Positions 9,641 through 32,176 of a stretch of 34,191 bases of DNA are shown here, piece after piece. The position numbers and the translations under genes were made by a program. The notes under the pieces are model-generated. The model was given only the letters and a program-made list of their open reading frames with translations, was not told the DNA's origin and did not search any database. The DNA is from Cyclobacteriaceae bacterium (GTDB lineage Bacteria; Bacteroidota; Bacteroidia; Cytophagales; Cyclobacteriaceae): assembly GCA_026989535.1 (NCBI GenBank), contig JALSJD010000006.1:1-34191 (forward strand). Reading direction: 5' to 3'. Numbering within the stretch: the first letter of the stretch is position 1; every line of letters starts with the position of its first letter.

Positions 9641-9665
9641 AAACTACAAAAGGTTTGTCTATAAC

Positions 9666-16406: not shown

Positions 16407-16414
16407 TAGATTTG
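16407..16414 (+). promoter_or_regulatory. -7 box match upstream of the Tsp protease gene
   Basis: TAGATTTG matches the Bacteroidota -7 consensus TAnnTTTG exactly and lies 31 bases before the GTG start at 16446. No clear -33 TTG is seen at the right distance. Confidence 0.35.
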
Positions 16415-16445
16415 TAAATTATTTAGTAGAGAACCGACAAAGATT

Positions 16446-18575
16446 GTGAGAATTAGCGAAAAAATGAAGAAGAGATTAGTAATTATAATACCCATCATAC
16501 TTGCTTTGGCAAGTTTTGCATTACTGCCAATAAACAAAGATATTAGCTTTGATAAGGTTAGTGATATTCCAAAATTTGAGCTAGAATATCAGATTAATGA
16601 TACCATTAAAGTAGTATACCCTGAAGCCAAAAATGTAAATGAGACGGTATTAATCACCGAACTTCTTAAACGGTTTCATTACAAAAAAGTACCCTTAAAC
16701 GATTCGCTCTCTAGCGTTATTTACACTAATTATTTAGAAAACTTAGATAATACCAAACTCTATTTTAGAACTTCTGATATTGCCTCTTTTGATAAGTATA
16801 AATTTGAAATTGATGATATGCTTAAAGCAGGTAATATTGAGGTACCATACCAAGTATTTGCCGTTTTTAAAGAGCGCTATTACGAGCGTATTGCTTATGT
16901 AAATCAACTTTTTGAACGCGATTTTGATTTTAGCAAGAAGGAATTTTTTGATTTGGATCGCAAAGAGGCAACGTATCCAAAATCCATAGCAGCTCAAGAC
17001 GAACTTTGGAGAAAGTACATAAAAAGTGAAATACTGAATTATGTATTAGACGATAAAACGCAAGAAGAGGCCAAAGAGATACTAATTAAACGATATAAGC
17101 GCTACAAAACAGCTATGCAGCAGTATAATAGTGCCGATATCTACCAAATTTTTATGAATAGCTATATGGAGTCGCTCGACCCGCATACCAGCTATTTTAA
17201 CCCCATTACTGCCGAAAACTTTGATATTGAAATGAGCAAATCACTGGAAGGGATTGGGGCTCGACTAAGCAAAGATGGAGATTATACCGTGGTGTATTCC
17301 ATTGTGCCAGGCGGCCCGGCCTTTAAAGGAAACGAGTTGCATGACAATGATAAAATCATAGGAGTTGCACAAGGCAAAGAGGGTGAAATGATAGATGTAG
17401 TTGGATGGCGAAATGATGATGTGGTGCAATTAATCAGAGGTAAAAAAGGAACATTAGTTCGATTAAATGTGCTAAAAGCCGAAGGGGGTGTTTCTTCTAA
17501 ACCTCAGGTAATAGAAATTGTACGCGATAAGATAAATTTAGAAGATGCACGAGCCGAAAGCCAAGTGTATGAGTTTATAAAAGAGGGAGAACCTTACCGA
17601 TTAGGGGTGGTAAATATCCCTTCGTTTTATAAAGATTTTAAAAATGCCAGCAGCGGAAATGCTGAGTTTAATAGTACCACCAGAGACGTTCAAAAACTAA
17701 TTGCAGACCTTAAAACAAAAGAAATTGATGGGTTGCTTATCGACTTACGAAGAAATGGGGGCGGAGCCTTAGACGAAGCCGTAGAGTTAACAGGTTTATT
17801 TGTAGATCATGGCCCGGTGGTACAGGTAAAAGACTATGTGAATAAAATACACCAAGAAGATGACAATAGTAATGAAGTATTTTATAATGGCCCCTTAACA
17901 GTACTTACCAGTAGGTTAAGTGCCTCGGCTTCTGAAATTTTTGCGGCCGCCATCCAAGATTATAGGCGAGGGGTAATTATTGGGGAGCAGTCTTTTGGCA
18001 AAGGAACCGTGCAGAGCTTAATTGGCTTGCAACAATACATACCAGAAGAAAAAGAAAAGCTTGGGCAGTTAAAATTAACAACAGCTAAATTTTATCGAAT
18101 AAATGGAGGCAGCACGCAGAATTTAGGAGTTACACCAGATGTAAAATTACCTTCGACATTTGACCACACAGAAGTAGGAGAGGCCTCGTATGCCAGTGCC
18201 CTTAAGTGGGACAAAATACCGGCTGCCAATTATAATTTAGATAATTCAGTTACGGATGAGTTTATCATTCAACTTAATCAAGCGTATAGCCTTAGAGCGA
18301 AATCGGATAAAGATTTACAAAACTTAATTGCGGATTTAGAAAAACTCAAAGAGCGCAGAGGCATTAAAAAGGTTAGCTTAAACGAAGCAGAGAGAAGAAC
18401 CCAACTAGAGGAAGAAGAAAAAGCCCAACCTACTGTTGATGAGCTAGACTCCGCTGCTTACTCAAAAGAAGGCCTCACAAGTGAAACTTCAGAAAAAACA
18501 CTTAAACTAAAAGATGTGTATTTAGAAGAAAGCTTACTTATTTTAGCAGATGTTGTAAGTTTAGCAGACGCATAA
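16446..18575 (+). CDS. prc: Carboxy-terminal processing protease, Tsp/Prc type (S41A)
   Basis: A 709-residue periplasmic protease. A signal peptide or anchor begins at the GTG start or at the internal ATG at 16464 (KKRLVIIIPIILALASFAL). The DUF3340-like N-terminal part contains YMESLDPHTSYFNP, the PDZ domain covers about residues 255-350, and the S41 core has GLLIDLRRNGGGALDEA. The catalytic Ser lies in SASASE (residues 492-497) and the Lys in FGKGTVQ (Lys519). The C-terminal DUF3340/helical tail is present. It probably trims envelope proteins or peptidoglycan enzymes. Confidence 0.93.
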   Translation: MRISEKMKKRLVIIIPIILALASFALLPINKDISFDKVSDIPKFELEYQINDTIKVVYPEAKNVNETVLITELLKRFHYKKVPLNDSLSSVIYTNYLENLDNTKLYFRTSDIASFDKYKFEIDDMLKAGNIEVPYQVFAVFKERYYERIAYVNQLFERDFDFSKKEFFDLDRKEATYPKSIAAQDELWRKYIKSEILNYVLDDKTQEEAKEILIKRYKRYKTAMQQYNSADIYQIFMNSYMESLDPHTSYFNPITAENFDIEMSKSLEGIGARLSKDGDYTVVYSIVPGGPAFKGNELHDNDKIIGVAQGKEGEMIDVVGWRNDDVVQLIRGKKGTLVRLNVLKAEGGVSSKPQVIEIVRDKINLEDARAESQVYEFIKEGEPYRLGVVNIPSFYKDFKNASSGNAEFNSTTRDVQKLIADLKTKEIDGLLIDLRRNGGGALDEAVELTGLFVDHGPVVQVKDYVNKIHQEDDNSNEVFYNGPLTVLTSRLSASASEIFAAAIQDYRRGVIIGEQSFGKGTVQSLIGLQQYIPEEKEKLGQLKLTTAKFYRINGGSTQNLGVTPDVKLPSTFDHTEVGEASYASALKWDKIPAANYNLDNSVTDEFIIQLNQAYSLRAKSDKDLQNLIADLEKLKERRGIKKVSLNEAERRTQLEEEEKAQPTVDELDSAAYSKEGLTSETSEKTLKLKDVYLEESLLILADVVSLADA

Positions 18576-18642
18576 ATGTAGCATTTTACACGAGTGTATT
18601 TTCGCTTGGCTTTGAATTAATAGAGGTTTCCTTAAGCACTAA

Positions 18643-21600
18643 ATGAACGAAGAGCTCTTAATATTAATAGTTCGCTTATTTGCCATTGTCGCAAAAGAGC
18701 GAATTACCGAAGACGAACGTAATAATCTCAAAGAATTTCTTCTTATTCATGTTTCTCATGATAGTATTTCGCATTTTATCGAAGTATTTGATACAGAAAT
18801 AGATAAAATAACGGAGCACCACGACCTGGCCGATACCAATTTAGAAACAGCCGAATACATAGCCGACTGGGCAAAAGTACTTGACATTTGCAAGGTTATT
18901 AACGAAAGCCTTACCAAGCAGCAAAAGCTCGTATTGCTGTTAAAGCTTATTGAGCTAATGCTTCAAGACGGTCAAATATCTGAGCGGCAAAGCAATCTAA
19001 TCTTCTATATAAGCGAAGCCATTCATATTACGCAAAAAGAGACTGATTTAATCAAACTTTTTTTACTTGGCCAAGAGGTTGAAGACCTTGACTGCAAAGA
19101 GATTTTAATTGTTGATGAAGGGTCTGCCCCTCATCAACAAAAATCTGTGCATATCGTTTCGCGCAACCTTACAGGTATGATGGTGGTATTGCGAATTGCC
19201 GATGCGGATACTTATTTTATTAAGTACTTAGGCATCTCTAACCTTACCTTAAACGGCAATCATTTTAGAAGTAGAAAGGTGTATGTTTTTCCTACGGGCA
19301 GCAGTATTAGAGGCAATAAAATACAGCCTATTTACTACAGCGATGTTGTTTCTAAGTTTTTAAAGGAAGAATCTGTTCATAAAATCTCATTTGAGGCAAA
19401 AGATATCCACTATGCGTTTAAATCTGGTGTGGTTGGGCTTCAGAACATAAATATTGCAGAAGAAGGGGGCAAACTAGTGGGCATAATGGGTGCTTCAGGC
19501 TCTGGCAAGTCAACCTTATTAAGCATTTTAGATGGCAGCTCTGAGCCAACCCAAGGCACCGTATTATTAAATGGCAAAGATTTATACAAAGATGCTAAAA
19601 GCCTTCGTGGAGTAATAGGATTAGTGCCTCAAGACGATTTTTTGCTTGAAGAGTTATCGGTTTATCAAAATCTGTATTATGCAGCTCGCCTTACGTTTGG
19701 CAATCACAGCATCGAAAAAACACATAACTTAGTGCAAAGCACTTTAAAGAGCTTGGGCTTATCCGAAATTAAAGATTTACAAGTGGGCTCGACTTTGGAT
19801 AAAACTATAAGTGGCGGCCAACGAAAACGGCTGAATATAGGACTTGAGCTGCTTCGTAAACCAAGCATTTTATTTGTAGATGAACCTACCTCCGGGCTTT
19901 CGTCTAACGATTCCATAAATATTATGGATTTGCTTAAAGAGTTATCGTTGCAGGGCAAACTTATTTTTGTCGTTATCCACCAACCTTCGTCCGATATATT
20001 TAAAATGTTTGATCGGCTTATTATTTTAGATGTTGGGGGGTATCAAGTGTATTATGGCAACCCGGTTGAAGCCTTGGTGTATTTTAAAACCATTGTAAAT
20101 ATGGTTAATAAAGACCAAGGCGCATGTATGGAATGCGGCAATATAAAATCCGAACAAATTTTTAACATTTTAGAAAATAAAGTTGTTAATGAATATGGCC
20201 GTTTTACCGATAATCGAAGGATTTCTGCAGCTAAATGGTACGAATACTTTACTAAAAAAATTACCCTTCCTCAAGTAGAACAATCCAAAGAGCCCATTAA
20301 AATTACGCAAAAAAACCCAGGGCATTTTCAGCAAATGAAAATTTTTGGCATTAGAGACATTCGCACCAAACTTGCCAATAAACAATACCTGTTTATTACG
20401 TTTTTAGAGGCACCTGTATTGGCTCTTTTTTTAGGGTTGCTTATTCGTTATTACGAAAATCTAAATGGTGATTCTTCGTACTCATTTATGAATAATGATA
20501 ATATCCCTGTTTATTTTTTTATGACGGTTATCATTGCTCTTTTTATGGGCCTTACACTAAGTGCAGAGGAGCTGATTAAAGACCGTAAAATGCTCCAAAG
20601 AGAATCATTTTTACATTTAAGTAGAGCGAGCTATTTGGCCTCTAAAATTGCCGTGCAATTTTCTATATCGGCTGTGCAAACATTGAGCTTTGTAATTATT
20701 GGCAACCTTATTTTGCAAGTTAATGGGATGACGCTCTCTATGTGGGCCATTATGTTTTTTACGGCAGGTTTTGCCAATTTGCTTGGGCTAAACATATCTT
20801 CGGCCTTTAAATCGGCTGTAACGGTATATATATTAATTCCCTTATTAGTTATTCCGCAATTGGTACTAAGTGGCGTAATTATAAGTTTTGATAAGTTTAA
20901 CCCCCAACTTAGCAATTTGGATAAAGTACCGGCTGTGGGCAATTTAATGGCCTCGAGGTGGGCATTTGAAGCACTGGCAGTTACCCAGTTTAAACATAAT
21001 GCCTATAATAGGCAGTTTTATAATTATACTAGAGAAATTGCCTTGGCAGATTATTATGCCACCTATTATGTGCCAAGGCTCGAAACTCATTTATCCAAAG
21101 TGAGTAATAAATTTGACATTTTAGCAAACAACCCCGACTCGTTAAAAATTGTTAAGAGTCATTTAATCCTTTTAAAAAATGAGATAGATAAGCAGCTTAA
21201 AATGGTGGGTGCTAACCAATTTAAGAATGCCGATTCCATTGATTTATCAACTTTTAATAGAGAAATATACCAAGAAACTGAACTTTTTTTAGCCACTCTA
21301 AAAACATATTACCGCAATAAGCACCAACGATGGTCGAGTGAACTGGATAGCATTAAACATTTACTAACAGATACCCCTAATGGCTTGCAATTGCAGCAGT
21401 TTTTAAGAGCTCGTAACTATAATGCATCACTTAGCAATATGCTCGAAGGCAAAGGGGCAACTACCCGAATTGCGGAAGGAAAGGGGAAGATTATTCAAAA
21501 GATATACCCTATTTATTACCGACCTGACGAATCGAAATTTTTAGATATTGCTACCCGGTTTTATGCCCCCGAAAAGGTAATTGCCTATAAAAAAATGGAA

Positions 21601-21744
21601 ACCCTATATGCTAATTTACTTGTTATTATACTTATGACTATGTTTTTAACCATTAGCTTGTATTTTGATTGGCTCCGTAAACTAATGAACTGGATTGAGG
21701 ACTTTAAGCTGAATAGAAAGTATAAGCAAAGGGGCTTACGATGA
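18643..21744 (+). CDS. ABCG-like ABC-2 transporter with N-terminal TerB-like and FHA-like regions
   Basis: A 1033-residue single-chain transporter. Residues 1 to about 150 are helical with the acidic pattern of TerB-like domains (ITEDERNNLKEFLL, DGQISERQSNLI). Residues about 165-245 look like a small beta domain, possibly FHA-like. The ATPase follows: Walker A GASGSGKST (about 281-290), signature SGGQRKRLNIGLEL (about 388), Walker B ILFVDEPTSGLSS and the H-loop VVIHQPSSD. After a linker, a membrane block runs from about residue 585 to 740, then a roughly 230-residue extracytoplasmic helical domain (about 755-985), then a final membrane helix (about 988-1006). The ATPase-before-membrane order matches ABCG/White exporters. 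The substrate is unknown. Confidence 0.85.
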   Translation: MNEELLILIVRLFAIVAKERITEDERNNLKEFLLIHVSHDSISHFIEVFDTEIDKITEHHDLADTNLETAEYIADWAKVLDICKVINESLTKQQKLVLLLKLIELMLQDGQISERQSNLIFYISEAIHITQKETDLIKLFLLGQEVEDLDCKEILIVDEGSAPHQQKSVHIVSRNLTGMMVVLRIADADTYFIKYLGISNLTLNGNHFRSRKVYVFPTGSSIRGNKIQPIYYSDVVSKFLKEESVHKISFEAKDIHYAFKSGVVGLQNINIAEEGGKLVGIMGASGSGKSTLLSILDGSSEPTQGTVLLNGKDLYKDAKSLRGVIGLVPQDDFLLEELSVYQNLYYAARLTFGNHSIEKTHNLVQSTLKSLGLSEIKDLQVGSTLDKTISGGQRKRLNIGLELLRKPSILFVDEPTSGLSSNDSINIMDLLKELSLQGKLIFVVIHQPSSDIFKMFDRLIILDVGGYQVYYGNPVEALVYFKTIVNMVNKDQGACMECGNIKSEQIFNILENKVVNEYGRFTDNRRISAAKWYEYFTKKITLPQVEQSKEPIKITQKNPGHFQQMKIFGIRDIRTKLANKQYLFITFLEAPVLALFLGLLIRYYENLNGDSSYSFMNNDNIPVYFFMTVIIALFMGLTLSAEELIKDRKMLQRESFLHLSRASYLASKIAVQFSISAVQTLSFVIIGNLILQVNGMTLSMWAIMFFTAGFANLLGLNISSAFKSAVTVYILIPLLVIPQLVLSGVIISFDKFNPQLSNLDKVPAVGNLMASRWAFEALAVTQFKHNAYNRQFYNYTREIALADYYATYYVPRLETHLSKVSNKFDILANNPDSLKIVKSHLILLKNEIDKQLKMVGANQFKNADSIDLSTFNREIYQETELFLATLKTYYRNKHQRWSSELDSIKHLLTDTPNGLQLQQFLRARNYNASLSNMLEGKGATTRIAEGKGKIIQKIYPIYYRPDESKFLDIATRFYAPEKVIAYKKMETLYANLLVIILMTMFLTISLYFDWLRKLMNWIEDFKLNRKYKQRGLR

Positions 21745-21803: not shown

Positions 21804-21955
21804 ATGTCAAGTAAAAAGAGAAAATTTAGTAAAGAAGACAAACTCCAAATAATAAAAGAAGCCTCAGAGCAAGGAGAGTAAAGGTAACCTTAGACAAACA
21901 CGGTATTTTCCTGCCTCTTATTATAGCTGGAAAAGCAATCTGGAGGGAAATGGAC
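21804..21955 (+). pseudogene. IS3-family orfA transposase remnant, frameshifted
   Basis: The ATG at 21804 opens SSKKRKFSKEDKLQIIKEA, the HTH of an IS3-type OrfA. The frame breaks after EQGE; shifted frames continue VTLDKHGIF and then PASYYSWKSNLE, which is the expected order of this family's conserved PxSYYxWK motif. At least two frameshifts exist and no orfB remains. The remnant runs directly into the Rhs reading frame near 21950. Confidence 0.75.
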
Positions 21956-21983: not shown

Positions 21984-24800
21984 ATGGGCACGTGGGAAAT
22001 GGACTATGAAGATGCCCAATTAACCCAAACTACCAATGCAGTTTATAGCACAGAAACCACTAACTTTACCACAGTAAAAGGGCAAGTAACCGCCAGTAGG
22101 GTGAAAAACCTAGACGATAACAATTGGCTAAAAACAGTAATGTATTACGATGATAGATACAGAGTGATTCAAACAGTAGCAGATAATAATTTGGGAGGAA
22201 AGGATAGGGTAAGCAACCTCTATGATTTTGTAGGAAAGGTACTCCAAACTAAAAGCACGCATACTGCTGGTACAGCTACAAATGAAATCTTAGCAACCCA
22301 TACCTACGACCACGCTGGCAGGTTGTTAGAGGTAAAACAGCAACTCAATACCGAAGATGAAATTATACTGATTGCCAATGATTACAACGAGCTGGGCGAG
22401 CTGATTGAAAAAAACCTACACTCCGAAGATGATGGAACAACCTTTGCCCAAAGTGTGGATTACCGCTATAATATTAGAGGGTGGTTGACAAGCATAAATG
22501 ATAATACATTAAGCGATGGAGAAAACGATTATTTTGGGATGGAACTTTTGTATAATAACCAGGATGTTTCTTTAGGAAACAGTTCTTTATTCAACGGAAA
22601 TATATCCGCAGTTAAATGGACATCAGGCGTAAATGGAAGTGAGCAGCAAGCCTACACCTACAGTTACGACCCGATGAACCGCATTACCAATGCAACTTCT
22701 AAAAAACTAGATGTTGCTTGGCTATCGGGTGCAACCAATATGAGTGTGGGAGGTTATGATTTAAATGGGAATATTCTCTCACTTACACGAAACGGAGCCA
22801 ATGGTGTAATGGATAACATGACTTATGCGTATGGAACGAAAGGAAACCAATTGCAGTCGGTAACGGATGCAGGAGATATTACCCAAGGTTTTAAAGATGG
22901 GAACACCACAGGCAACGATTACGATTATGACGGTAATGGCAATATGACCGAAGATAAAAACAAAGACATTACCGCCATCGAATACAACCACCTGAACTTA
23001 CCGGGCAAGGTAACAAAAGGAAGAGGCGAATACATAAAATACGTTTATGATGCCACAGGCATAAAACTGGCACAAGAAGTATATAATGCCAGTAATGAAT
23101 TACAAAAGCGTACCGACTACGCAGGTCAGTTTATCTATGAAACGATTGAAACAGGGCAAGCTGAACTTCAATTTATCCAAACTGCCGAAGGAAGAATCAT
23201 CCCCGGACCTGTTCCGGGGTCTCCCGTAGAATATCAATACCATTTAAAAGACCACTTAGGCAATACACGGGTAAGCTTTACTACCAAAGATGAAACAGAT
23301 ACCTATTTGGCTACTATGGAAACCGAATACAGAGCCTATGAAACAGCCACCTTTACCAATGTAGAAGAAACCGACAAGCAAGACCAGTTATTTAATAATA
23401 CCCCACCCGATGCCAACGTGGCTATACCCGCTTATTCGGCTATGCTTAATAGTGTAGCCACCCAAATAATGGGCCCGGCAAAAAGTATTAGCGTAGCTCC
23501 GGGCGATGTACTAAATTTAGAAGTATGGGTAAAATATGCCACTGCATCCTATAACGGAAACGGAGATAAGGTACTGGCAAATACTATGTTGGCAGCCATA
23601 GCAACAGCCTTTACACCCGTAGGAGCTACTGCAGAAGTAGCACAGCAAATATTAGATCAGTTTACAGCAGCAGGCGCAGGTGCATTAAGCCCGGCAGCCA
23701 ATACCGATGCTCCGGCAGCGTATTTAAATTACCTACTGTTCGATACTAACTACCTACTCATCCAAAGTGGTTTTGAAGGCATAAGCACCGCAGCAGAAGG
23801 CAGTTTTGAAAAACTGGAAACCATTCCCCCTGTTTCCATCACCGAAGCAGGCTATTTATACATATATGTAAGCAACGAAGATGCTGCCAATATAAATGTA
23901 TATTTTGATGATTTAAAAATTACCCACACCAAAAGCAAGATTGTTCAGATGGATAGCTACTATCCCTTTGGGCTCGCCTTTAATGAGTTTAAAAGAGAGA
24001 ACTCTAAAAAGAATAATTTCCTTTTTCATAATCAGACTGAATTGATAGAAGACCTTGATTTAAATTGGTATCACTTCAAATATCGTATGCATAATCCAGC
24101 GATAGGAAGATTCTTTAATGTTGATCCGCTGGCAGATAGCTATGTGTATAATAGTCCTTATGCATTTGCAGAAAACAAGTTAGGAATGGGTATTGAGTTA
24201 GAAGGTGCGGAACTTCTCCCTTTTCCTTGGCTGTCAGCCGGGATGGCTTTTTCAAGGCCTTCTCCGATGATTAGACCTGTAATTGAAACTGTTGTTAAAA
24301 CGGGAGTAACTCGACCAAAGTGGAATCCAAGTAGCTCTGTTGGCGAAAATCTTGGTCGTTTTGCTCGAGTAGGTCGACAAGCGCATTCCGAAAGACAAGC
24401 TGAATGGAGAGTTGATGGAATTAAAACAGAACAGCAATTAGGTAAAGGAAACAGAGCAGATGGAGTAAAAATTGAACAAGGAGCTGATGGTGTAAAGCGT
24501 GGTATTATTAGGGAATTAAAGCCAAATAGTAAAAACGGAAAAAGAGCTGGTAAAGCACAACTTAATCGCTATGTAAAAGGAGCTCAAAAGAAATACCCTG
24601 ATGTAGCAGAGTGGCAGCCAGAGCTAGAATTATATCAAATGCTTAATGTGGTTCCAAATAATGAAGGGACAAATTCAATAGTACCCAAAAACATTCAACC
24701 TGTAGCGCCATTTATTATACCAAGTGATAATACTAATATTGCTCCCAGTCCTAAAACCAAGACAGCCAATCCTTGTGCGGTAGAAGGAGCTTGTTCTTAG
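21984..24800 (+). CDS. Rhs/YD-repeat polymorphic toxin, 5'-truncated, nuclease-like tip
   Basis: A 938-residue Rhs protein, far shorter than full-length members; the N-terminal delivery part is missing. The same frame is open upstream to about 21922 (giving TNVTAQNENP) until it hits the IS3 remnant, so the visible ATG is only the first Met after a junction. YD repeats are visible (YDLNGNILSLTRNG, YDYDGNGNMTED, YVYDATGIKLAQ). The core ends with YHLKDHLGNTRVSF and GRFFNVDPLADSY (about 709-721). The tip starts after residue 741. It has RADGVK, IIRELKPNSKNG and GKAQLNRY, fitting a PD-(D/E)XK nuclease (D..ExK, then a Q-Y helix). The likely immunity gene faces it and overlaps its end by 4 bases. 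Delivery competence is doubtful without the N-terminus. Confidence 0.85.
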   Translation: MGTWEMDYEDAQLTQTTNAVYSTETTNFTTVKGQVTASRVKNLDDNNWLKTVMYYDDRYRVIQTVADNNLGGKDRVSNLYDFVGKVLQTKSTHTAGTATNEILATHTYDHAGRLLEVKQQLNTEDEIILIANDYNELGELIEKNLHSEDDGTTFAQSVDYRYNIRGWLTSINDNTLSDGENDYFGMELLYNNQDVSLGNSSLFNGNISAVKWTSGVNGSEQQAYTYSYDPMNRITNATSKKLDVAWLSGATNMSVGGYDLNGNILSLTRNGANGVMDNMTYAYGTKGNQLQSVTDAGDITQGFKDGNTTGNDYDYDGNGNMTEDKNKDITAIEYNHLNLPGKVTKGRGEYIKYVYDATGIKLAQEVYNASNELQKRTDYAGQFIYETIETGQAELQFIQTAEGRIIPGPVPGSPVEYQYHLKDHLGNTRVSFTTKDETDTYLATMETEYRAYETATFTNVEETDKQDQLFNNTPPDANVAIPAYSAMLNSVATQIMGPAKSISVAPGDVLNLEVWVKYATASYNGNGDKVLANTMLAAIATAFTPVGATAEVAQQILDQFTAAGAGALSPAANTDAPAAYLNYLLFDTNYLLIQSGFEGISTAAEGSFEKLETIPPVSITEAGYLYIYVSNEDAANINVYFDDLKITHTKSKIVQMDSYYPFGLAFNEFKRENSKKNNFLFHNQTELIEDLDLNWYHFKYRMHNPAIGRFFNVDPLADSYVYNSPYAFAENKLGMGIELEGAELLPFPWLSAGMAFSRPSPMIRPVIETVVKTGVTRPKWNPSSSVGENLGRFARVGRQAHSERQAEWRVDGIKTEQQLGKGNRADGVKIEQGADGVKRGIIRELKPNSKNGKRAGKAQLNRYVKGAQKKYPDVAEWQPELELYQMLNVVPNNEGTNSIVPKNIQPVAPFIIPSDNTNIAPSPKTKTANPCAVEGACS

Positions 24801-25210
24801 GAAATGATTTTAAGGGTAGTGAAAATTTTGCAAACAAGTTGATTAAGTTTTCGAACTGACTTGATATACTTCAAGTCAGTTGTTAGAGTTATAAATAACA
24901 TAATCTGCTTATGGCCAAGAACCCAGTTTAATTGAAGAATTTCTTCTTCTAGATTCTTGGTCATATATTGAATGGAATCATATTTTGATAACTGAGTAAT
25001 AATAGCATCAGGGTATTCTAGAATCTCCTTTTTATATTGATGATCTACATTGTAGGTATTATTATTCTTATTAACATATGCAGATATTTGAATTACTCCC
25101 TCAAGTTCATTTTCATTAAAAATAGTATATGTGTTATCTTCAAAGCTAAATTGCCATCCATCAGCAATAGCTAATTGAAATAGATTGTGAGTTGATTTTA
25201 AAATTTGCAT
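24797..25210 (-). CDS. Candidate immunity protein for the Rhs nuclease tip
   Basis: A 137-residue acidic cytosolic protein with no signal peptide. It overlaps the end of the toxin gene by 4 bases in convergent orientation, which is unusual because Rhs immunity genes normally follow on the same strand. The N-terminal pattern (NLFQLAIADGWQFSFEDNTYTIFNE then EGVIQISAYV) recalls the PsbP/Mog1-like, DUF3805-type immunity fold, with a C-terminal region of alternating strands. The family link is my impression and needs a profile search. Alternatively it could be unrelated cargo. Its own promoter would lie in the 9-base gap or within the XRE gene upstream, so it may be cotranscribed with that regulator. 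Confidence 0.6.
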   Translation of the reverse strand: MQILKSTHNLFQLAIADGWQFSFEDNTYTIFNENELEGVIQISAYVNKNNNTYNVDHQYKKEILEYPDAIITQLSKYDSIQYMTKNLEEEILQLNWVLGHKQIMLFITLTTDLKYIKSVRKLNQLVCKIFTTLKIIS

Positions 25211-25219
25211 AAACAGATA

Positions 25220-25549
25220 TTACGAATATGCTTGTTTAGCTTTAAAATCCCTTAGCAAGGCATCTACCACATTATAGAGTTGTGCTTTTTCCTGTTCAGG
25301 GAGTTGCGAAATATGTTCTAATCGTTTGAGAGCACCCGTATCGAGTTCGAGCTTAGTTTTACCTACAAGGTAATCAAGCGAAATCTCAAGTGCATCAGCA
25401 ATATTTATAACCACCTCAATAGAAGGCTTCACTTCGTCACGCTCGTAGCGTCCTAGCAAATCACCAGAAGTACTGGCAAGCTTTCCCAGTTCGTTTTGCG
25501 AAAGCTTTTTTCGTTTTCTAAGGGTCGTGATATGTTCACCTAAAGTCAT
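25220..25549 (-). CDS. XRE-family HTH regulator
   Basis: A 109-residue repressor-like protein from the ATG at 25549 (MTLGEHITTLRKRKK); an in-frame upstream ATG at 25591 would add 14 residues and is less likely. The Cro/C1 HTH spans about residues 5-58 (LSQNELGKLASTSGDLLGRYERDEVKPS). A short C-terminal helical part (LEHISQLPEQEKAQLYNVVDAL) may dimerise. It is divergent from the AAA+ gene, and the shared gap carries repeated GATATA boxes. It probably controls the whole recombinase module, as phage-type repressors do. Confidence 0.85.
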   Translation of the reverse strand: MTLGEHITTLRKRKKLSQNELGKLASTSGDLLGRYERDEVKPSIEVVINIADALEISLDYLVGKTKLELDTGALKRLEHISQLPEQEKAQLYNVVDALLRDFKAKQAYS

Positions 25550-25562
25550 ATATAAGTAGTTA

Positions 25563-25676
25563 AAACGATATAAATAATACGCTTTGAACAAATGTAGCTG
25601 ATATAAAAGTCTTAATCAAACGATATATACCTTGCTATGTTCTGTAACATATACTAGTTTAGTGATATATATATCA
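25563..25676. promoter_or_regulatory. Operator cluster between XRE and ATPase genes
   Basis: AAACGATATA occurs exactly twice (25563-25572, 25618-25627), with a further TGATATA (25599-25605) and a perfect TGATATA-TATATCA dyad (25663-25676) 13 bases before the ATPase start. A second dyad, ATGTT-CTGT-AACAT, lies at 25637-25650. Repeated half-sites of one sequence in a divergent gap are the expected layout for an XRE repressor. Confidence 0.55.
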
Positions 25677-25689
25677 GAAAATAATTTTT

Positions 25690-27258
25690 ATGAAAGATAT
25701 AAAAAGAGTGTTTGACACAAGCAACGGAGATCATATTATCTACCAACACCCACCAATGTACATAGCCGTGCTAGGAGGCATAAGATTAGAAGGCTTGGAC
25801 AGAATGCGGGTAACGCTTAAAATCCAAGTAGAACACTTAGCATTAAGACATAATTTAGACTTATATAATGATAACCAAACTGAGAAGCTGATTAGGAAGA
25901 TTGCCGAGCGGTTAGAAATCGGTACCAGTGTAGCAGCCGCAGCCTTAACCGATTTAACGGATGAACTAGAAAAATACAGGTTGGAAGAATTGGAGCGGAT
26001 AGCATCCGCAAGCAACCAAAACCAACGAAAACTGCTTACCCCAGATGAAATAAAAGCAGCTCAACAATACTTATCAGCACCCAACTTAATGGCACGCACC
26101 AAAGAAGATATAGGCAAAGCAGGCGTAATAGGTGAGGAAGATAACAGGCTCCTGATGTACTTAATCTTTACGAGCAGAAAAAGAGATAATCCTTTACATA
26201 TTATCAGCTTGGGCAGTAGTGGCATAGGTAAAACTCACTTGCAAGAAAAGGTAAGTGCCTTAATACCCGAAGAAGATAAAATGGAAATAACCACATTAAG
26301 CGGCAATGCCTTTTACTACTTCGGTCAGCAAGAGCTTAGAAATAGACTGATATTGATTGAAGATTTAGACGGAACCGATGAAGTGCTGTACCCCTTACGA
26401 GAAATCAAAAGCAAGAAGAGAATTACTAAAACGGTGGTAATCAAAAACACCAAAGGCGAAACCAGAACGGTGAGTTTAGTAGTGGAAGGGCCAGTTTGCG
26501 TGAGTGGTTGTACCACCAAAGAAAGCCTGTATGAAGATAATGCGAACCGAAGTTTTTTGATTTACATAGATGAAAGTAAGGCACAAGACAGTAATATAAT
26601 GGCCTATCAAAGAAAGTTAAGTGCAGGCAAAATAGACTTAGCGGCAGAACACGAAATACAGGAGCAGTTTAAGAATATGCAACGGGCACTCGTGCCAATT
26701 ACTATACGAAACCCTTTTGCAGAAAGCTTACTAATCCCCGAAGAAGTGTTTAAGCCAAGAAGAAGCAATGCTCATTATCTAGCCTTTATAGAAGCAGTAA
26801 CCTTTTACCATCAACATCAACGAGAGAAGCAACACGATAAAGAAACAGGAGAAGAATACATTGAAACGAGTATTGAGGATATAGAAGAAGCTAATAAATT
26901 GATGAAAGAAATCCTACTCAGGAAATCAGATGACTTAAATGGAGCTACTCGGAACTACTTTGAGCAATTAAAAGACTGGTTGAAACTCGAAGACAAAAAT
27001 AGTTTTACCAATGTAAGTGCCAGACAAGCCTTGAAAGTAAAAGCCAGTAACCAAAAGCGGTATATGATTGCTTTGCAGGAATGGGGCTTAGTACAAAAAG
27101 TGAAAGGAGATAAAAAGAATGGCTTTGGCTATGAAGTGAGTACGTATGAAGACCAAGCCCAACGGAACAGGCGAATAGAAGCTGTAATGGATGAAATTGT
27201 ACAAAAACTAAGTGTAAGTAGTTCAAGAAGCCCAAAAGAAGTTCAAGCCGTAAAATGA
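25690..27258 (+). CDS. AAA+ ATPase of a mobile element, helicase-like
   Basis: A 522-residue protein. The N-terminal 130 residues are of unknown type. The ATPase core has Walker A GSSGIGKTHL (about 177-186), Walker B LILIEDLDG (about 219-227) and a later SGCTTKESLYEDNANRSF stretch with a plausible sensor and Arg finger. This order is like MCM/helicase-loader type AAA+ proteins on plasmids and integrative elements. The C-terminal part (GATRNYFEQLKDWL to LVQKVKGDK) resembles a winged helix. It is first in a row with two tyrosine recombinases 98 bases downstream. It may help replicate or excise the element; its exact role is unknown. Confidence 0.75.
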   Translation: MKDIKRVFDTSNGDHIIYQHPPMYIAVLGGIRLEGLDRMRVTLKIQVEHLALRHNLDLYNDNQTEKLIRKIAERLEIGTSVAAAALTDLTDELEKYRLEELERIASASNQNQRKLLTPDEIKAAQQYLSAPNLMARTKEDIGKAGVIGEEDNRLLMYLIFTSRKRDNPLHIISLGSSGIGKTHLQEKVSALIPEEDKMEITTLSGNAFYYFGQQELRNRLILIEDLDGTDEVLYPLREIKSKKRITKTVVIKNTKGETRTVSLVVEGPVCVSGCTTKESLYEDNANRSFLIYIDESKAQDSNIMAYQRKLSAGKIDLAAEHEIQEQFKNMQRALVPITIRNPFAESLLIPEEVFKPRRSNAHYLAFIEAVTFYHQHQREKQHDKETGEEYIETSIEDIEEANKLMKEILLRKSDDLNGATRNYFEQLKDWLKLEDKNSFTNVSARQALKVKASNQKRYMIALQEWGLVQKVKGDKKNGFGYEVSTYEDQAQRNRRIEAVMDEIVQKLSVSSSRSPKEVQAVK

Positions 27259-27356
27259 ACTACATAACTACGAACCCAGATAGTAGCAGCAGAAAATAGA
27301 AGTAGTTCAGTCAAAACCGAAAACATCAACCGACCCAATAATCGGGAGTAATAAAA

Positions 27357-28415
27357 ATGAAAAACTTAAACCTTGAAAACGCCTCTTACCGCTACCTAGA
27401 GCAAAGTTTTAAAGAATGGCTAGACGTACAAGGCTATGCAGCCAGCACGGTGTATAACTTACCCTTGCACGTTCGTGAGTTGCTGTTTTACTTAACCAAT
27501 GAAGGAGTACACCACATCAAGCAATTAAAAACCACCCATATTGAAAGCCATTACCAACAATTAAAGCAGCGCACTAATATCAGGCGAGGTGGTGGGTTAA
27601 GCAATGCACACTTGAATAAACATATCCAGGCATTACGCAGATTTACTGAATACCTCAGAAAAGTAGGCAGGTTAGACATCCCAGAGATACGCATCGAAAA
27701 TGAAGAAACTCAGCCAAGAATAATCTACCTAACCACCGAAGAAATTAATCTGCTATTTAAAACCACCTATCAAGAGCCTGAAAAGAGACTCAATACCAAT
27801 CAAACGATTATAGAAGCCTTGCAAGCAAGAGACAGAGCTATGCTAGCCGTGTTTTATGGATGTGGCTTAAGAAGAAATGAAGGAGTTAGTTTAGATGTAG
27901 GAGACATTAATTTTGATAAGGCATTACTCCACGTGAGAAAAGGCAAGAACTATAAAGAACGATTTGTTCCGATTAGTAAAACCAATTTGAAATACTTGCA
28001 AGAGTATGTATATGACCATCGCCCTGAAATCTTACTCGGAAGTAAAACCACGGCACTATTTACAGGCTATCAGCAGTACAAAAGGTTGCAAGGTCAAAGT
28101 TTAAACCTGCGGTTAAAATACCTGCAATATCAAAGTGGTGATATTGATCTGAATGAAAAAGAAATAGGCCTACACACGCTTAGGCATAGCATAGCTACCC
28201 ACTTGCTGCAAGCAGGTATGAAGCTGGAAAGTATCAGCCGTTTTTTAGGCCATAGCAGCTTAGACAGCACACAGGTATATGTTCATCTATCTGGAATCCC
28301 ACAAGAAAAAGAGAATCTTGATTACCGAAGCCTTGGCGTAGGAAATCAACCCTTTAACAATCTTAAACACTATGAATCAGGTAAACTCCATGAAGATGAA
28401 AGAGGAATTTATTAG
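27357..28415 (+). CDS. Tyrosine recombinase A (catalytically complete)
   Basis: A 352-residue XerC/D-like integrase. The N-terminal SAM-like core-binding domain covers about residues 5-105 (YLEQSFKEWLDVQGYAAST). The catalytic set is intact: Arg172 in YGCGLRRNEG, Lys in the HVRKGKNYKERFV beta-hairpin, His273 and Arg276 in HTLRHS, His299 in LGHSSLDS and the nucleophile Tyr308 in TQVYVH. A good Shine-Dalgarno-like GGGAG precedes the start. Its last 44 bases overlap the start of the second recombinase, so the two are made together. Confidence 0.9.
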   Translation: MKNLNLENASYRYLEQSFKEWLDVQGYAASTVYNLPLHVRELLFYLTNEGVHHIKQLKTTHIESHYQQLKQRTNIRRGGGLSNAHLNKHIQALRRFTEYLRKVGRLDIPEIRIENEETQPRIIYLTTEEINLLFKTTYQEPEKRLNTNQTIIEALQARDRAMLAVFYGCGLRRNEGVSLDVGDINFDKALLHVRKGKNYKERFVPISKTNLKYLQEYVYDHRPEILLGSKTTALFTGYQQYKRLQGQSLNLRLKYLQYQSGDIDLNEKEIGLHTLRHSIATHLLQAGMKLESISRFLGHSSLDSTQVYVHLSGIPQEKENLDYRSLGVGNQPFNNLKHYESGKLHEDERGIY

Positions 28416-29295
28416 CTACCTAAAATCAAAAGGGTTTACAAGCAAAAGCATCCATAGCCGAATGAATGTGTTTAATCAGTATATAAAATGGCTTGTAAAA
28501 GAGAATTTAGAAGCAGAACAAATAAGCTATAATGATTTACTGCTGTTTATGAAGCATAGCCAACAAAAGGGGATTAGCCAACGCACGATTAAACATTATA
28601 TGATTGTGGTGCGGCACTTCTATGATTACTTATTGAGAGAAGAACGCATCAGTACAAACCCTGCAACCGATATAGAAGTAAAAGGAGCGAAGCGGAAAGT
28701 GCTTTATCAAATCTTGGAAACCCACGAGCTGCACGAGCTTTATAATAAATACCCTGTTGAAACTATCCAACAGAAGAGAGACAAAGTACTGTTAGGATTA
28801 CTGGTATATCAAGGCATTAGAACCGAAGAACTGGGCAAACTTGAAACCAATGACATTAAGCTGAAAGAAGGTAAAATAGACGTGCTAGGAGGCGTAAGAA
28901 GAAATGGACGAATGATGCAACTGGAAGCGCACCAAGTATTAGAAATGTATGATTACATTTTACAGGTACGCCCAGAGCTTGAACAGATGAAACCCAAACG
29001 GAAATATCAAACGCAAACTAAATCAAACCTGTTATTTATAGGAGAAGGAGGGTATAGGTACAGCATTAACAATATTGTAACCCGAACCATGGTAAGGGCA
29101 AGAAAGATTAATCCAACCGTATTAAATGCCAAACAGATTAGAGCAAGTGTAATAACCAAATGGTTGAAATCTTACAACTTAAGAGAAGTACAATACTTGG
29201 CTGGCCATCGGTATATCAGCAGTACCGAAAGCTTTTTACAAAATGATATGGAAGGGTTGAAAGAAGAAGTTCAGCAGTTCCATCCTTTGGGCTAA
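28372..29295 (+). CDS. Tyrosine recombinase B, lacking the catalytic tyrosine
   Basis: A 307-residue tyrosine recombinase fold protein. The N-terminal core-binding domain is clear (FISYLKSKGFTSKSIHSRMN). Arg150 (YQGIRTEELG), Arg257 in KQIRAS (Lys254 at the usual His position) and His279 in LAGHRYISST are present. Counting nine residues after His279, where recombinase A has Tyr308, this protein has Phe288 (TESFLQND). Close relatives in this phylum normally read STExY. The nucleophile is thus missing and strand cleavage by this subunit should fail. It may act as an architectural partner of recombinase A or be a decayed copy. A second start (MKMKEEF) a few codons later is possible. Confidence 0.87.
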   Translation: MNQVNSMKMKEEFISYLKSKGFTSKSIHSRMNVFNQYIKWLVKENLEAEQISYNDLLLFMKHSQQKGISQRTIKHYMIVVRHFYDYLLREERISTNPATDIEVKGAKRKVLYQILETHELHELYNKYPVETIQQKRDKVLLGLLVYQGIRTEELGKLETNDIKLKEGKIDVLGGVRRNGRMMQLEAHQVLEMYDYILQVRPELEQMKPKRKYQTQTKSNLLFIGEGGYRYSINNIVTRTMVRARKINPTVLNAKQIRASVITKWLKSYNLREVQYLAGHRYISSTESFLQNDMEGLKEEVQQFHPLG

Positions 29296-29364
29296 CGAAG
29301 CTTTAGCGAAGTAGCACCACTAGGTTAAGAAGATAAAAATGAAATCCATTAAACTGAAATAATT

Positions 29365-29646
29365 ATGAAAACGTTATCTTTACTAAAAGTAGTGAGAATG
29401 AATAGTATCGCAGAAATAAAATCCACATTACATTATTACATCGCAGAGACAGATGATGTAAAAGTGTTGTCCAAACTCCAAAAATATGTAAAAGGGCTGT
29501 TAGATAAAGAAGATAAGGTTATTGCCTATACATCATCAGGCAAGCCATTAACCCAATTAGCCTACAAAAAGGATATTGATGCAGCCATAGCCGAAGCTGA
29601 TAGAGGAGAAGTAATATCACAAGCGGATATGGAAAAAGGGCTGTGA
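29365..29646 (+). CDS. Antitoxin of a RelE/ParE-type pair
   Basis: A 93-residue small protein, or 82 residues from the second ATG at 29398 (MNSIAEIKSTLH), which may be the real start. It is helical and acidic, with a C-terminal AIAEADRGEVISQADMEKGL typical of antitoxins paired with RelE/ParE toxins. Its stop overlaps the toxin start by four bases. It should bind and neutralise the downstream protein. Confidence 0.7.
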   Translation: MKTLSLLKVVRMNSIAEIKSTLHYYIAETDDVKVLSKLQKYVKGLLDKEDKVIAYTSSGKPLTQLAYKKDIDAAIAEADRGEVISQADMEKGL

Positions 29647-29942
29647 GTAGAAAAGTAGAATGGACAAAAAGGGCAAGCGCTTCCCTTGATTACTATTGTG
29701 GTCACATAGCAGAAGAATCTCCTTCAAGTGCAAAGAAAGTAAGAAGAGAGATTGTACTAACAGCAAAAACGCTATCAAAAAATGCCACACTGTATCAATT
29801 AGATGAATATTATCCTGATAATGAAGGAGATATTAGAAGATTTTTTCGTTGGGATTATCGGGTAGTATATCAAGTACGAGAAGAAAAAGTAGTTATCCTT
29901 AATGTATATCATACAAGTAGGCATCCTGATAAAATAAAATAA
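29643..29942 (+). CDS. RelE/ParE superfamily toxin
   Basis: A 99-residue toxin starting with GTG inside the antitoxin's stop region. It has the RelE/ParE fold pattern: VEWTKRASASLDYYCGHI at the N-terminus, the RRFFRWDYRVVYQVREEKVVILNVYHTSRHP beta-sheet core (cited in parts: YRVVYQV and VYHTSRHP) and a basic face. Whether it cuts mRNA on ribosomes (RelE) or blocks gyrase (ParE) cannot be told. As the last gene of the recombinase module it would stabilise the element by addiction. Confidence 0.82.
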   Translation: MSRKVEWTKRASASLDYYCGHIAEESPSSAKKVRREIVLTAKTLSKNATLYQLDEYYPDNEGDIRRFFRWDYRVVYQVREEKVVILNVYHTSRHPDKIK

Positions 29943-29972
29943 TCATACTGTACGAATCCAACAAAAGAGATG

Positions 29973-30002
29973 TTTTTACCGCCCATCGAGGGACGGTAAA
30001 AA
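29973..30002 (+). terminator. Hairpin terminator after the toxin-antitoxin pair
   Basis: TTTTTACCG (29973-29981) and CGGTAAAAA (29994-30002) form a perfect 9-bp stem, extended inward by CCC/GGG with one bulge. It lies 30 bases after the toxin stop. It is AT-tailed on both strands, so it may stop transcription from either side; it could also mark the element end. Confidence 0.55.
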
Positions 30003-30099
30003 GCACTTAGGAAAAGCGGAGTGCCACCTTCAATCGTCAGCAAATAAAACCGCCAAGCCAAAGCAGCACATTTTTATTTTTCAATTGAAAGAAAATAGA

Positions 30100-30560
30100 C
30101 ATAAAAATAAGCTGCTTTGCCCTTCGGGTTGCTCCGTTGCACTCCGCAAGCTTGTCACTTTTATTGCGTTCCTCTATCAGTTGTCACGGCAGTTCTCGGT
30201 ATTTTTAGCAGCCTTGAGAAAAGCAAGGCAACAAAAAATCCCTTCTCTGCCAGTATTTTTGCTCACCTGCGGGTCGCTGCGGGCTGCGGGTAAGTTGATT
30301 ATTGCCTCCGGCAGGTAGGCTTCCCTTGTGTAAGAACATAGCTGCAAGCGGTCTGCTCGTTCCTCACAAACACAAAGCTTACACCACCCTTGCTCCATTC
30401 GCAGGTGGCTCGCAAACCTACGTTCGTGCCTCTCTTCGGTTGGCTTGGCCGTTCGTTCGCAATCCGTTCGTACCTCACTCATTGCAAGCTCTGTCCAGCC
30501 TTTTAGCTCAAGGCTGTTTTTCCTTTACTTGTGCTTCTCAAATCCCACGCTAAACAGCGG
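30100..30560. other. GC-rich structured non-coding stretch, candidate ncRNA or element end
   Basis: About 460 bases of clearly higher GC than the surroundings. It has three CTGCGGG copies (30267-30273, 30277-30283, 30284-30290), CCTTCGGG and CCGGCAGG type hairpin pieces and a strong terminator at its right end. Reading frames on both strands give low-complexity Ser/Leu/Cys-rich peptides with no recognisable domain, so I regard it as non-coding. Similar GC-rich blocks occur near transfer or end regions of Bacteroidota mobile elements, from memory only. Confidence 0.45.
30496..30521 (+). terminator. Rho-independent terminator
   Basis: CAGCCTT (30496-30502) pairs perfectly with AAGGCTG (30510-30516), with a 7-base loop and a TTTTT tail. 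It lies at the right edge of the GC-rich stretch on the plus strand, suggesting that this stretch is transcribed rightward. Confidence 0.6.
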
Positions 30561-30585
30561 CTCATTTTGCTTCGCACAAATTAAA

Positions 30586-30617
30586 AAAAGCCATCAAGAA
30601 ATGATTGGCTTTCCTTT
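30586..30617. terminator. Possible bidirectional terminator
   Basis: AAAGCCATCA and TGATTGGCTTT form a stem with one bulge and a 5-base loop, flanked by an A run on the left and TCCTTTT on the right. Confidence 0.45.
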
Positions 30618-30738
30618 TGGATTAATTATTTACAGTTGAATACTCATACTAAAGAAAATGAGTGTTCATACCGCACTAGAGAAAAGGCAGTGCACAGAAA
30701 TAAGGTAGAATCCTAGTTTGGTGCATCCCGATTAAAAT

Positions 30739-30789
30739 TAAATGGGCAATTACCTAATCAGTAAATTAAGCACATACCAAGCCCATTTA
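30739..30789. repeat. 9-bp inverted repeat
   Basis: TAAATGGGC (30739-30747) and GCCCATTTA (30781-30789) are perfect inverted copies with 33 bases between them, in otherwise non-coding sequence. The function is unknown; a recombination or regulator site is possible. Confidence 0.35.
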
Positions 30790-30821
30790 TTTTTAACCGA
30801 GATGGTTTATTACTTACTTGA

Positions 30822-30995
30822 CGGTCAGTTTTTGAGGTGGAATGCTGCCAAAACGATGGCGTTAAAACTATTGGTTGGAATAGTTTTAATCCAAGCGAAG
30901 GCCTAGAGGGTTTTTGGGAGCGAATGGAACGAGGGGCTATTTTACATAATATGCTTATAGAACAGCTTGGGTATCAACAAGGGTTTTGCGGCTGA
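30822..30995 (+). pseudogene. Decayed reading frame of unknown origin
   Basis: A 57-codon open stretch without a start codon that reads protein-like (FEVECCQNDGVKTIGWNSF, then EGLEGFWERMERGAILHNML). A TGA directly precedes it, and a few similar-looking codons continue upstream. It is probably a fragment of a lost gene, perhaps an old toxin or immunity gene of the Rhs locus. I cannot name the family. Confidence 0.35.
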
Positions 30996-31025
30996 TTATA
31001 TAAGAGCATGTTATGTTAATATAGC

Positions 31026-31036
31026 TTAGGAGGCTA
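31026..31036. repeat. Possible IS terminal repeat, right copy
   Basis: TTAGGAGGCTA is the exact reverse complement of 21757-21767. If both are ends of one old IS3-type or composite unit, everything from the truncated Rhs gene to here lies between them. Confidence 0.35.
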
Positions 31037-31082
31037 GAAAGGATGTCCTCTGATTATTGATCGGTAAGCAATAAATTTATAG

Positions 31083-31117
31083 CGGTTCTCGCGCTTAACA
31101 TTTAAACGTGAGAACCG
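31083..31117. repeat. Inverted repeat before the small peptide frame
   Basis: CGGTTCTC (31083-31090) and GAGAACCG (31110-31117) are perfect 8-bp arms with a 19-base AT-rich loop, ending one base before an ATG. It could be an operator, a translation-blocking hairpin or an attenuator. Confidence 0.5.
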
Positions 31118-31225
31118 ATGAAAGTAAAACAGAAAGTAAAGGAAATAATAAAGCTATTAATCCAACTAGCAAGGCTTGCAAAATATCTAATAGAATTAGT
31201 AAAACAGGCGATGGATATGTTTTAA
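31118..31225 (+). CDS. Possible 35-residue cationic amphipathic peptide
   Basis: The frame opens MKVKQKVKEIIKLLIQLAR and continues LAKYLIELVKQAMDMF. It is a near-ideal amphipathic helix, rich in Lys, Ile and Leu, and has no Cys or Pro. It lies 25 bases before the second Rhs tip and directly behind an 8-bp inverted repeat whose hairpin could hide its start. No clear Shine-Dalgarno sequence is visible. It may be a membrane-active peptide, a leader that controls tip translation, or a chance frame. Confidence 0.4.
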   Translation: MKVKQKVKEIIKLLIQLARLAKYLIELVKQAMDMF

Positions 31226-31249
31226 AAAATAGCTATCTTGACGCTCTGA

Positions 31250-32176
31250 ATGGGCTGTAGAAAGTTAACATATTATGAAGACCAAGAGGCAGGGGTAATA
31301 AAACCGCTTCTGTTAAAAAATACAGACACCCTAAGCAAAAAAGAGGTGTCCGAAAAAAAACGCTACGATTATTATCCGTTTGGTGGAACGTTTAACTCCT
31401 TTAGAAGAGAAGACAAACTGGCTAATAAGTTTAAATTTCAGGGGCAGGAACATGATGAATTAACAGGGTGGGATCAATTCAAATGGAGAAATCACCAGCC
31501 AGATATAGGTCGCTTTTTCAACATCGATCCTTTGGCGGAAAGCTATGTATATAATAGTCCTTATGCGTTTGCTGAAAACAAATTAGGAATGGGGATTGAA
31601 CTAGAAGGATTAGAATTAGCAGAGGCATTCACATCTTTTGTTATTACTATGAAAGCAAATTCTGTTGGAAACAATCAAAAAATTTCCAATGTTATTATGG
31701 ACAATAACAAATCAAACCCCCATATACCAAAGAGTTCGAGTGCTGCTATGAGGTTATCGGATGCTGGCTCTGTAAGTGATAATGTATCTAAGAATATTAA
31801 CGAAGTGCAAAAGGTTGCTTTGACAGGCGCAAAGGTCGTTGGGACAGTCTTAGAATTTACACCAGCAGCTCCAATTGGAATAGCGATTAATGTAGTAGCT
31901 GAAGGGCTTGATCAAAAAAGACAGGTTGCATTTGAAGGCAAAGATGCTAATGCAGCTAAAATGGACGGAGCAATAGATGCAACAATTTCACTTGTGGCTG
32001 GTGGGCTGGGGAAGAAAGCTAGAACAGCAACGGCAAAAGCTGATCCTGTAAAAGCAAAAGAAGGTGCGTATAAGGTTTTTAACAATACGATAGATGCAGT
32101 TACAAAAATGTTTGAGACAGCAGGTAAAGAGGTAAAACAAAAAGTTGATGAGAACAAGGTGCAAGATGAACAATAA
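31250..32176 (+). CDS. Orphan Rhs tip cassette with a second, hydrophobic toxin end
   Basis: A 308-residue protein with only the last part of an Rhs core. It begins MGCRKLTYYED, the usual opening of stand-alone tip cassettes in Bacteroidota, then RYDYYPFGGTFNSF and GRFFNIDPLAESY (about 86-98). The block coding for SYVYNSPYAFAENKLGMG and the following five residues is identical in protein to the first Rhs gene. The tip after residue 120 differs completely: it is Ala/Gly-rich with hydrophobic helices (LTGAKVVGTVLEFTP, IGIAINVVAEGL, ATISLVAGGLG) and a Lys-rich coiled tail, suggesting a membrane-acting toxin. The stop overlaps the next small gene (TAATG). It could serve as a spare tip for recombination into a full Rhs gene. 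Confidence 0.75.
   Translation: MGCRKLTYYEDQEAGVIKPLLLKNTDTLSKKEVSEKKRYDYYPFGGTFNSFRREDKLANKFKFQGQEHDELTGWDQFKWRNHQPDIGRFFNIDPLAESYVYNSPYAFAENKLGMGIELEGLELAEAFTSFVITMKANSVGNNQKISNVIMDNNKSNPHIPKSSSAAMRLSDAGSVSDNVSKNINEVQKVALTGAKVVGTVLEFTPAAPIGIAINVVAEGLDQKRQVAFEGKDANAAKMDGAIDATISLVAGGLGKKARTATAKADPVKAKEGAYKVFNNTIDAVTKMFETAGKEVKQKVDENKVQDEQ

Follow-up and report, generated by a model that had tools for sequence, protein, structure and literature searches.

A probable recombinase-bearing integrative element of RHS polymorphic-toxin genes

Which mobile unit is formed by a divergently transcribed XRE-type repressor, an ATPase, two overlapping tyrosine recombinases and a toxin-antitoxin pair in a Cyclobacteriaceae bacterium, and where does it begin and end? 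These genes lie on a stretch of 34,191 nt (GCA_026989535.1, contig JALSJD010000006.1, positions 1–34,191, forward strand), hereafter the window. A sequence-only reading had suggested that they form a self-contained mobile element of 4.7–6 kb. Open reading frames (ORFs) and family profiles confirmed every gene on that list, the pair consisting of a ParE toxin and a small ORF in the antitoxin position, and the mobile-element reading itself gained strong signs, such as a conserved context and sharp junctions. The gene set sits inside an RHS polymorphic-toxin locus, which that reading had overlooked. We propose that it very probably belongs to an integrative element that targets polymorphic-toxin genes and stacks toxin tips by site-specific recombination at the core/tip junction.

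In the window, the mobile unit would span positions 23958–31369 (7,412 bp). Its order is a site inside the RHS gene, a toxin tip, a probable immunity gene, the XRE gene on the minus strand, the ATPase, the first and second tyrosine recombinases (TR1 and TR2), the toxin-antitoxin cargo, a tail and a second copy of the site (Table 1). The unit is accordingly longer than first proposed, with an RHS tip and a probable immunity gene added upstream and a tail added downstream; positions 25220 and 29942 are not element ends, and the toxin-antitoxin pair is variable cargo rather than a conserved terminus. This arrangement of a core-tip gene with an immunity gene (its function inferred from position), followed by displaced tips, is the one expected of tip displacement in Rhs and contact-dependent growth inhibition (CDI) systems. 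The window tip weakly matches Tox-REase-9 (26.9 bits, cut-off 27.3). The genome itself holds a single ATPase copy, and the tail found no second match in it.

The search for relatives used only the ATPase and took no account of RHS genes. Relatives occurred in 8 of 59 genomes of a kinship sample and 14 of 392 genomes of a phylum sample (10 of 179 genera; the window genome is counted in both), as well as at 16 loci in GTDB contigs. The merged table lists 55 complete or partial ATPase copies; upstream DNA reaches 4.5 kb or more in 33 of them, and downstream DNA 9 kb or more in 14. It excludes L001–L020 and L054–L077 (shorter refetched stretches, other tyrosine-recombinase hits and the tail search; such labels are our own), and L025 is a second view of the first unit of L024. 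The order XRE(−)–ATPase–TR1–TR2 recurs in most relatives whose DNA extends far enough, so the linkage that the sequence-only reading had proposed to check is not accidental. RHS cores were located with a profile built here, a strict regular expression having found only 3. A same-strand RHS core lay 1.1–3.6 kb upstream of 28 of the 33 copies, and RHS cores followed downstream in 10 of the 14. Because RHS cores number only 0–28 per genome (15 genomes searched), this association is not due to chance either, and chance linkage was rejected. In Enterobacter, a like unit lies inside a CdiA-like gene at the motif VENN, described in the available text of PMC11278526 as the border of CdiA toxins. Among nine plasmid records read in context, the unit lay in an RHS gene in two and in a CdiA-like or hemagglutinin gene in two; two were small circles, and the others comprised a sparsely annotated small Leptospira plasmid, a Leptospira plasmid with no obvious toxin gene and one record unannotated at that place.

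The ends of the copies also show regularities. An orphan tip opens abruptly at a conserved RHS motif, in most cases Y-Y-P-F-G (site A, as in the window) or Y-R-Y-G-F-N-G (site B), and the sequence before it is element tail. Directly before site A, the motif W7-YGC-N6 was present in 13 of 13 right ends examined (10 distinct sequences) and in none of 18 RHS-side ends; these sets leave out L025 c1 (the same as L024 c1) and three tips with no preceding element (M38 c4, L078 c1 and L040 c1). Before site B, L027, L032 and L028 carry YGC-N9; L044 does so once an additional TCC is tolerated, and L092 does as judged by eye. In L028 and L044 the element before the site lies outside the fetched DNA.

One alternative is a self-contained transposon of 4.7–6 kb running from the XRE gene to the toxin-antitoxin pair, for which RHS loci are a mere landing zone. 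The core genes are indeed collinear in most relatives, and in one array (M80) the machinery repeat begins downstream of the tip. Tandem units and the E. coli insert described below nevertheless start at the toxin site and include the tip and immunity genes, and the cargo between TR2 and the tail differs among copies. We regard this transposon as very unlikely.

Near-identical tandem units switch from one to the next within 0–35 bp, at the core/tip junction. The crossover is confined to 6 bp in Aureispira (unit of 7,652 bp), to 8 bp in Aureibacter tunicatorum (8,169 bp), to 13 bp coding V-E-N-N in Enterobacter (7,685 bp) and to 35 bp in genome G145 (6,749 bp). A tandem junction of about 8 bp, TGAATTGG, was read by eye in genome G253, and the L024 and L025 contigs, if they form one array, switch with no shared base at CCC/TTTGG. 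Such junctions can be set against host RecA homologous recombination moving tips between RHS cores (the model of Jackson 2009), with the recombinase genes as passengers in the arrays. Some arrays do contain longer core repeats (257 bp at 78% in M80, 35 bp in G145), orphan tips occur with no intervening element in L040 and L078, and homologous recombination activates an orphan tip in Salmonella according to the available text of PMC4927057. Yet junction identity extends over just 0–13 bp in five of six measured tandem cases, the tail upstream of the site has no visible RHS homology, in different phyla the breaks fall repeatedly at the border of core and tip, and site A carries a common end motif at fixed spacing. 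We consider a purely homologous origin improbable.

An empty site was found in E. coli. In strain JNE120442, the rhs gene upstream of nhoA carries a tip and is followed by more tip and immunity genes, SymE, a helix-turn-helix (HTH) gene, a CHC2 primase (annotated as frameshifted), XerC and a displaced tip; in 21F61 and JNEC-KY177, the same locus between ansP and nhoA has that displaced tip fused to the core. Relative to 21F61, the JNE120442 insert measures exactly 7,928 bp and lies at the codons for DPIGL. Both proteins carry D-P-I-G-L from residue 1411 and then continue in frame into different tips. To the right, the two strains agree over 10,024 bp without a mismatch, from GATCCGATAGGG to the end of the compared stretch; to the left, the cores are colinear at 98.4% identity, and of 7,768 bases 105 are ungapped mismatches, two of them in the last 3.3 kb. 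A fixed attachment site stands at both ends of the element and an empty site is available from E. coli, none having been found for the window copy. Five E. coli genomes matched the JNE120442 orphan tip: JNE120442 itself, both empty alleles, 2014C-3338 (65% of the query) and AR_0077 (8%), the last with an rhs gene bearing another tip. The orphan tip of strain R12 matched seven genomes, six over the whole query and one over 48 bases; no empty allele was found among them, and R12 and A36, the two read in context, are both occupied.

Across E. coli, primase and xerC were found together by megablast in at least 55 of 5,426 genomes, at no fewer than 199 places, all chromosomal. These counts are a lower bound from a survey that did not use the whole circular Shigella record (see below) as a query, because its ISEc1 copy mainly drove matches to 5,313 genomes. 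In the seven E. coli contexts read, an RHS gene or stub lay upstream in all seven and an RHS stub downstream in six.

Like gene sets also occur on two small circular records. One, from Lonsdalea populi (11,289 bp), includes a gene annotated as a non-specific endonuclease and an NTF2-fold immunity gene; the other, from Shigella flexneri (8,758 bp), is 98.9% identical over its length to an E. coli rhs array. They are suggestive of free circles.

Units that are flanked by sites need not travel. A locus-bound tip-switching device, comparable to a shufflon or an integron array, would excise upstream tips to expose stored ones and would rarely or never move between loci or cells. Site pairs flank each unit, so that excision would restore a stored tip in frame. 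Such a device shares its recombination step with the integrative element proposed here, and the odds of the two overlap; we hold it to be possible, though doubtful. Against it stand the settings of the units, which lie on chromosomes, large plasmids and small circular records and within RHS, CdiA-like and other genes, and also their patchy spread (14 of 392 Bacteroidota genomes including the window's own; at least 55 of the 5,426 in E. coli), which suggests horizontal gain.

Under the integrative reading, a circle would carry the site, a toxin tip, an immunity gene, the repressor, the ATPase, the recombinases, cargo and the tail, and might pass from cell to cell. A tyrosine recombinase would insert it where core meets tip in an RHS or CdiA-like gene, so that the incoming tip becomes fused in frame with the host core while the old tip and its immunity gene are pushed downstream and orphaned. 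With repeated integration, units would stack, the newest closest to the core. TR1 would catalyse the reaction with TR2 as a degenerate partner, while the XRE protein would act as repressor and the ATPase would handle or replicate the circle.

The recombinase sequences are consistent with this division of labor. The catalytic residues R, K, HxxR, H and Y of TR1 are invariant in 17 of 17 aligned sequences, and in a wider set of 40 frames one stops short of the tyrosine. TR2 keeps the first catalytic arginine in only 4 of 39 frames, has phenylalanine in place of the tyrosine in 4 of 39 (the window, L023, and L040 and L094, which are one place) and stops before the tyrosine in two; here tandem copies were counted singly and box positions were taken from our own alignment. 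TR1 is thus the likely catalyst and TR2 its likely degenerate partner. A single annotated recombinase was present in the Enterobacterial units seen, against two in those of Bacteroidota; the one in E. coli R12 falls in the PRK01287 subfamily, scoring 526.7 bits against a cut-off of 371.

The ATPase matched no Pfam or NCBIfam family above cut-off. By alignment, the window protein is a predicted short form of a primase-ATPase, since three long relatives, all that were tested, carry CHC2 zinc-finger and TOPRIM domains and align with it in their C-terminal part; a role in handling or replicating the circle is probable. Its AlphaFold2 model was poor (mean predicted local distance difference test score 59.2, most of residues 133–303 below 50), and its profile drew only weak P-loop matches from PDB sequences. 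PADLOC hits were weak or fell in the primase part, no relatives were found in phage records, and 90 pattern matches in viral contigs yielded none that was confirmed.

The tail may have a role of its own. A reading frame that starts in the tail often continues into the displaced tip, so the displaced toxin may stay expressible in some copies: the frame begins with an MGCxKLTY-like leader in the window, L023, L024, L027 and L040, and with leaders judged by reading to resemble signal peptides in G253, G214 and Enterobacter. Stops separate the tail from the displaced tip in M80, L079 and Aureibacter.

Several observations count against integration as the general explanation. Upstream RHS cores are absent from 5 of the 33 copies (both M82 units of G253, L088 of G214, L090 and L093) and downstream ones from 4 of the 14 (L042, both M82 units and the last M86 copy); L078, too, has no downstream core within 8.8 kb. 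The M82 units and L088 lie in other genes resembling secreted toxins, in genomes with no RHS core at all, and the L090 and L093 copies look decayed. Site-B ends are less uniform than site-A ends, L089, L090, L041 and Aureibacter having no motif at fixed spacing. In M80 (L080 and L081 joined, genome G389), two 99%-identical machinery copies (7348–13445 and 14633–20730 of the joined stretch) bear different tips, which means that tips are exchangeable against a constant element. L040 and L078 hold several orphan RHS tips with no element between them, possibly non-autonomous units, and two site-A orphan tips that follow no element (M38 c4 and L078 c1) were seen by eye to have no end motif; other routes of tip movement therefore exist. 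The 35-bp junction leaves a RecA-only route open, though one hard to square with junctions of 0–13 bp and a fixed motif. The E. coli pair, which we read as an insertion, could instead record an excision. Tandem arrays wrongly assembled could account for the circular records: that of Shigella is colinear with an E. coli array between successive primase genes and has two sites, and that of Lonsdalea contains two diverged units. Because a collapsed tandem array, or homologous recombination, would give the same result, we treat them as suggestive and no more. Finally, the window copy may be inactive or silent, since its TR2 has phenylalanine and its host RHS gene is short and apparently truncated beside a remnant resembling an insertion sequence.

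We also lean, with less assurance, towards a broader interpretation. The units may form a cross-phylum class in Bacteroidota and Pseudomonadota, with core relatives on Leptospira plasmids, that integrates at the conserved codons preceding the toxin in unrelated delivery proteins (RHS, CdiA-like and other secreted proteins) and is a main driver of tip exchange. Such units would be retained because their loss means loss of immunity to siblings, and the tail would give the displaced toxin a new start and leader, keeping it expressible.

Table 1. Features of the inferred unit and its RHS host gene, in window coordinates.
Feature	Position	Strand	Basis or remark
RHS ORF: host core to 23957, incoming toxin tip from 23958 (inferred)	21984..24800	+	ORF, RHS profile
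Left attachment site TACTATCCCTTTGG, 14 bp, codes Y-Y-P-F-G, inside RHS gene; inferred unit start	23958..23971	+	
DUF3805-like gene (21.9 bits, cut-off 22), candidate immunity gene	24797..25210	-	directly after XRE; function inferred
XRE/RstR-type repressor, likely ATG 25549	25220..25591	-	NF041951, 92.2 bits vs cut-off 80
ATPase, Walker A GSSGIGKT, predicted short form	25690..27258	+	aligns to C-terminal part of CHC2-TOPRIM-ATPase proteins
TR1, tyrosine recombinase, catalytic residues complete	27357..28415	+	phage-integrase family match
TR2, degenerate tyrosine recombinase, Tyr to Phe	28372..29295	+	phage-integrase family match; 44-bp overlap with TR1
ORF in antitoxin position, variable cargo	29365..29646	+	no family match
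ParE-family toxin, variable cargo	29643..29942	+	PF05016, E 6.7e-13
Conserved tail, without convincing gene	29961..31054	.	79-88% to two places in L023; 29997-30289 71% to L027
Leader MGCRKLTYYED..., at element right end, in-frame open into displaced tip	31250..31369	+	
Right-end motif W7-YGC-N6 (AAAAAAACGCTACGAT)	31354..31369	+	
Right attachment site TATTATCCGTTTGG, start of displaced tip	31370..31383	+	
Displaced (orphan) RHS tip	31370..32176	+	RHS profile; frame opens at 31250

Further observations concern the surroundings of these units. In the window, the host RHS gene seems to be without its usual N-terminal part, and the remnant just before it (21805–21880), read by eye, shows the start of an OrfA-type frame; upstream of the locus, an ABC transporter is fused to a TerB-like domain that scored below the family cut-off (18643–21744). 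Small minus-strand genes directly follow the XRE gene in the window as well as in L024 (9209–9493), L026 (557–1129) and L027 (7233–7517), and perhaps confer immunity and are co-transcribed with the repressor. RHS arrays in Aureibacter are flanked by tandem repeats of about 57 bp and about 204 bp (L037, 1938–2589 and 3268–4311; L039, 2354–4369). Loci L024 and L025 come from the metagenome-assembled genome PBTY01, labelled Rickettsiales, and their elements are close to those of Bacteroidota, which points to a binning error or a transfer. On Leptospira kirschneri plasmid pLiSL21 (L108), HTH, CHC2 primase and two tyrosine recombinase genes are followed by ParA/ParB and HicA, with no obvious toxin gene; this set is perhaps an ancestral replicon form.

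If the interpretation is true, the element supplies long-missing machinery behind Rhs and CDI tip exchange, whose mechanism has been in question since displacement was first described. The mapped site, the shared end motif and the empty/occupied pair make that question testable in E. coli, and reading what follows the site offers a handle on new toxin-immunity pairs. We rate the kind of element as new, though each of its enzymes belongs to a known family. No description of it was found in the literature searched, which lay outside most subscription journals and bioRxiv, so that a prior description is possible; the idea of site-specific tip integration is anticipated there.

Among known elements with tyrosine recombinases, no named family with the same gene set was found, in keeping with the sequence-only reading. 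Tn554-family elements, with TnpC as third gene and a usual target, and RIT elements, with three tyrosine recombinases in a row, resemble the present units in having more than one such recombinase in succession; here there are two plus an ATPase, and the target lies inside toxin genes. Tn554 was rejected for want of a TnpC-type family match and because the target is a toxin gene, RIT because Bacteroidota units have two recombinases and the Enterobacterial units seen one. Integrons likewise use a tyrosine recombinase and stack gene cassettes behind a fixed point, whereas the units here carry their own recombinase and insertion would fuse them in frame with a host gene; with TR1 at 92.1 bits against TIGR02249 (cut-off 265) and units that are not recombinase-free, an integron was rejected.

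Toxin-immunity systems offer further parallels. The rAID systems of Bacteroidales are arrays of orphan immunity genes with a linked tyrosine recombinase, as far as the available text of PMC12247911 describes them; the recombinase linkage is shared, and membership was rejected because the present units carry a tip, an ATPase and recombinases rather than an array of orphan immunity genes. For effector-immunity insertion in Vibrio, the available text of Kirchberger 2017 reports no evidence for an integrase. In orphan cdiA-CT/cdiI arrays, integrase and transposase genes lie between the pairs, and site-specific recombination with integration of new modules into cdiA has been suggested (Ruhe et al. 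2016, PMC4927057), though the available text contains no defined element, attachment site, primase-ATPase or empty/occupied pair. Another precedent is Rhs C-terminal displacement, in which incoming tips displace old ones downstream and for which Jackson et al. 2009 (PMC2935791, available text) proposed a circular intermediate. Downstream displacement and the idea of a circle are common to both, while here the recombinase module lies within the unit and the breaks fall at a short fixed site.

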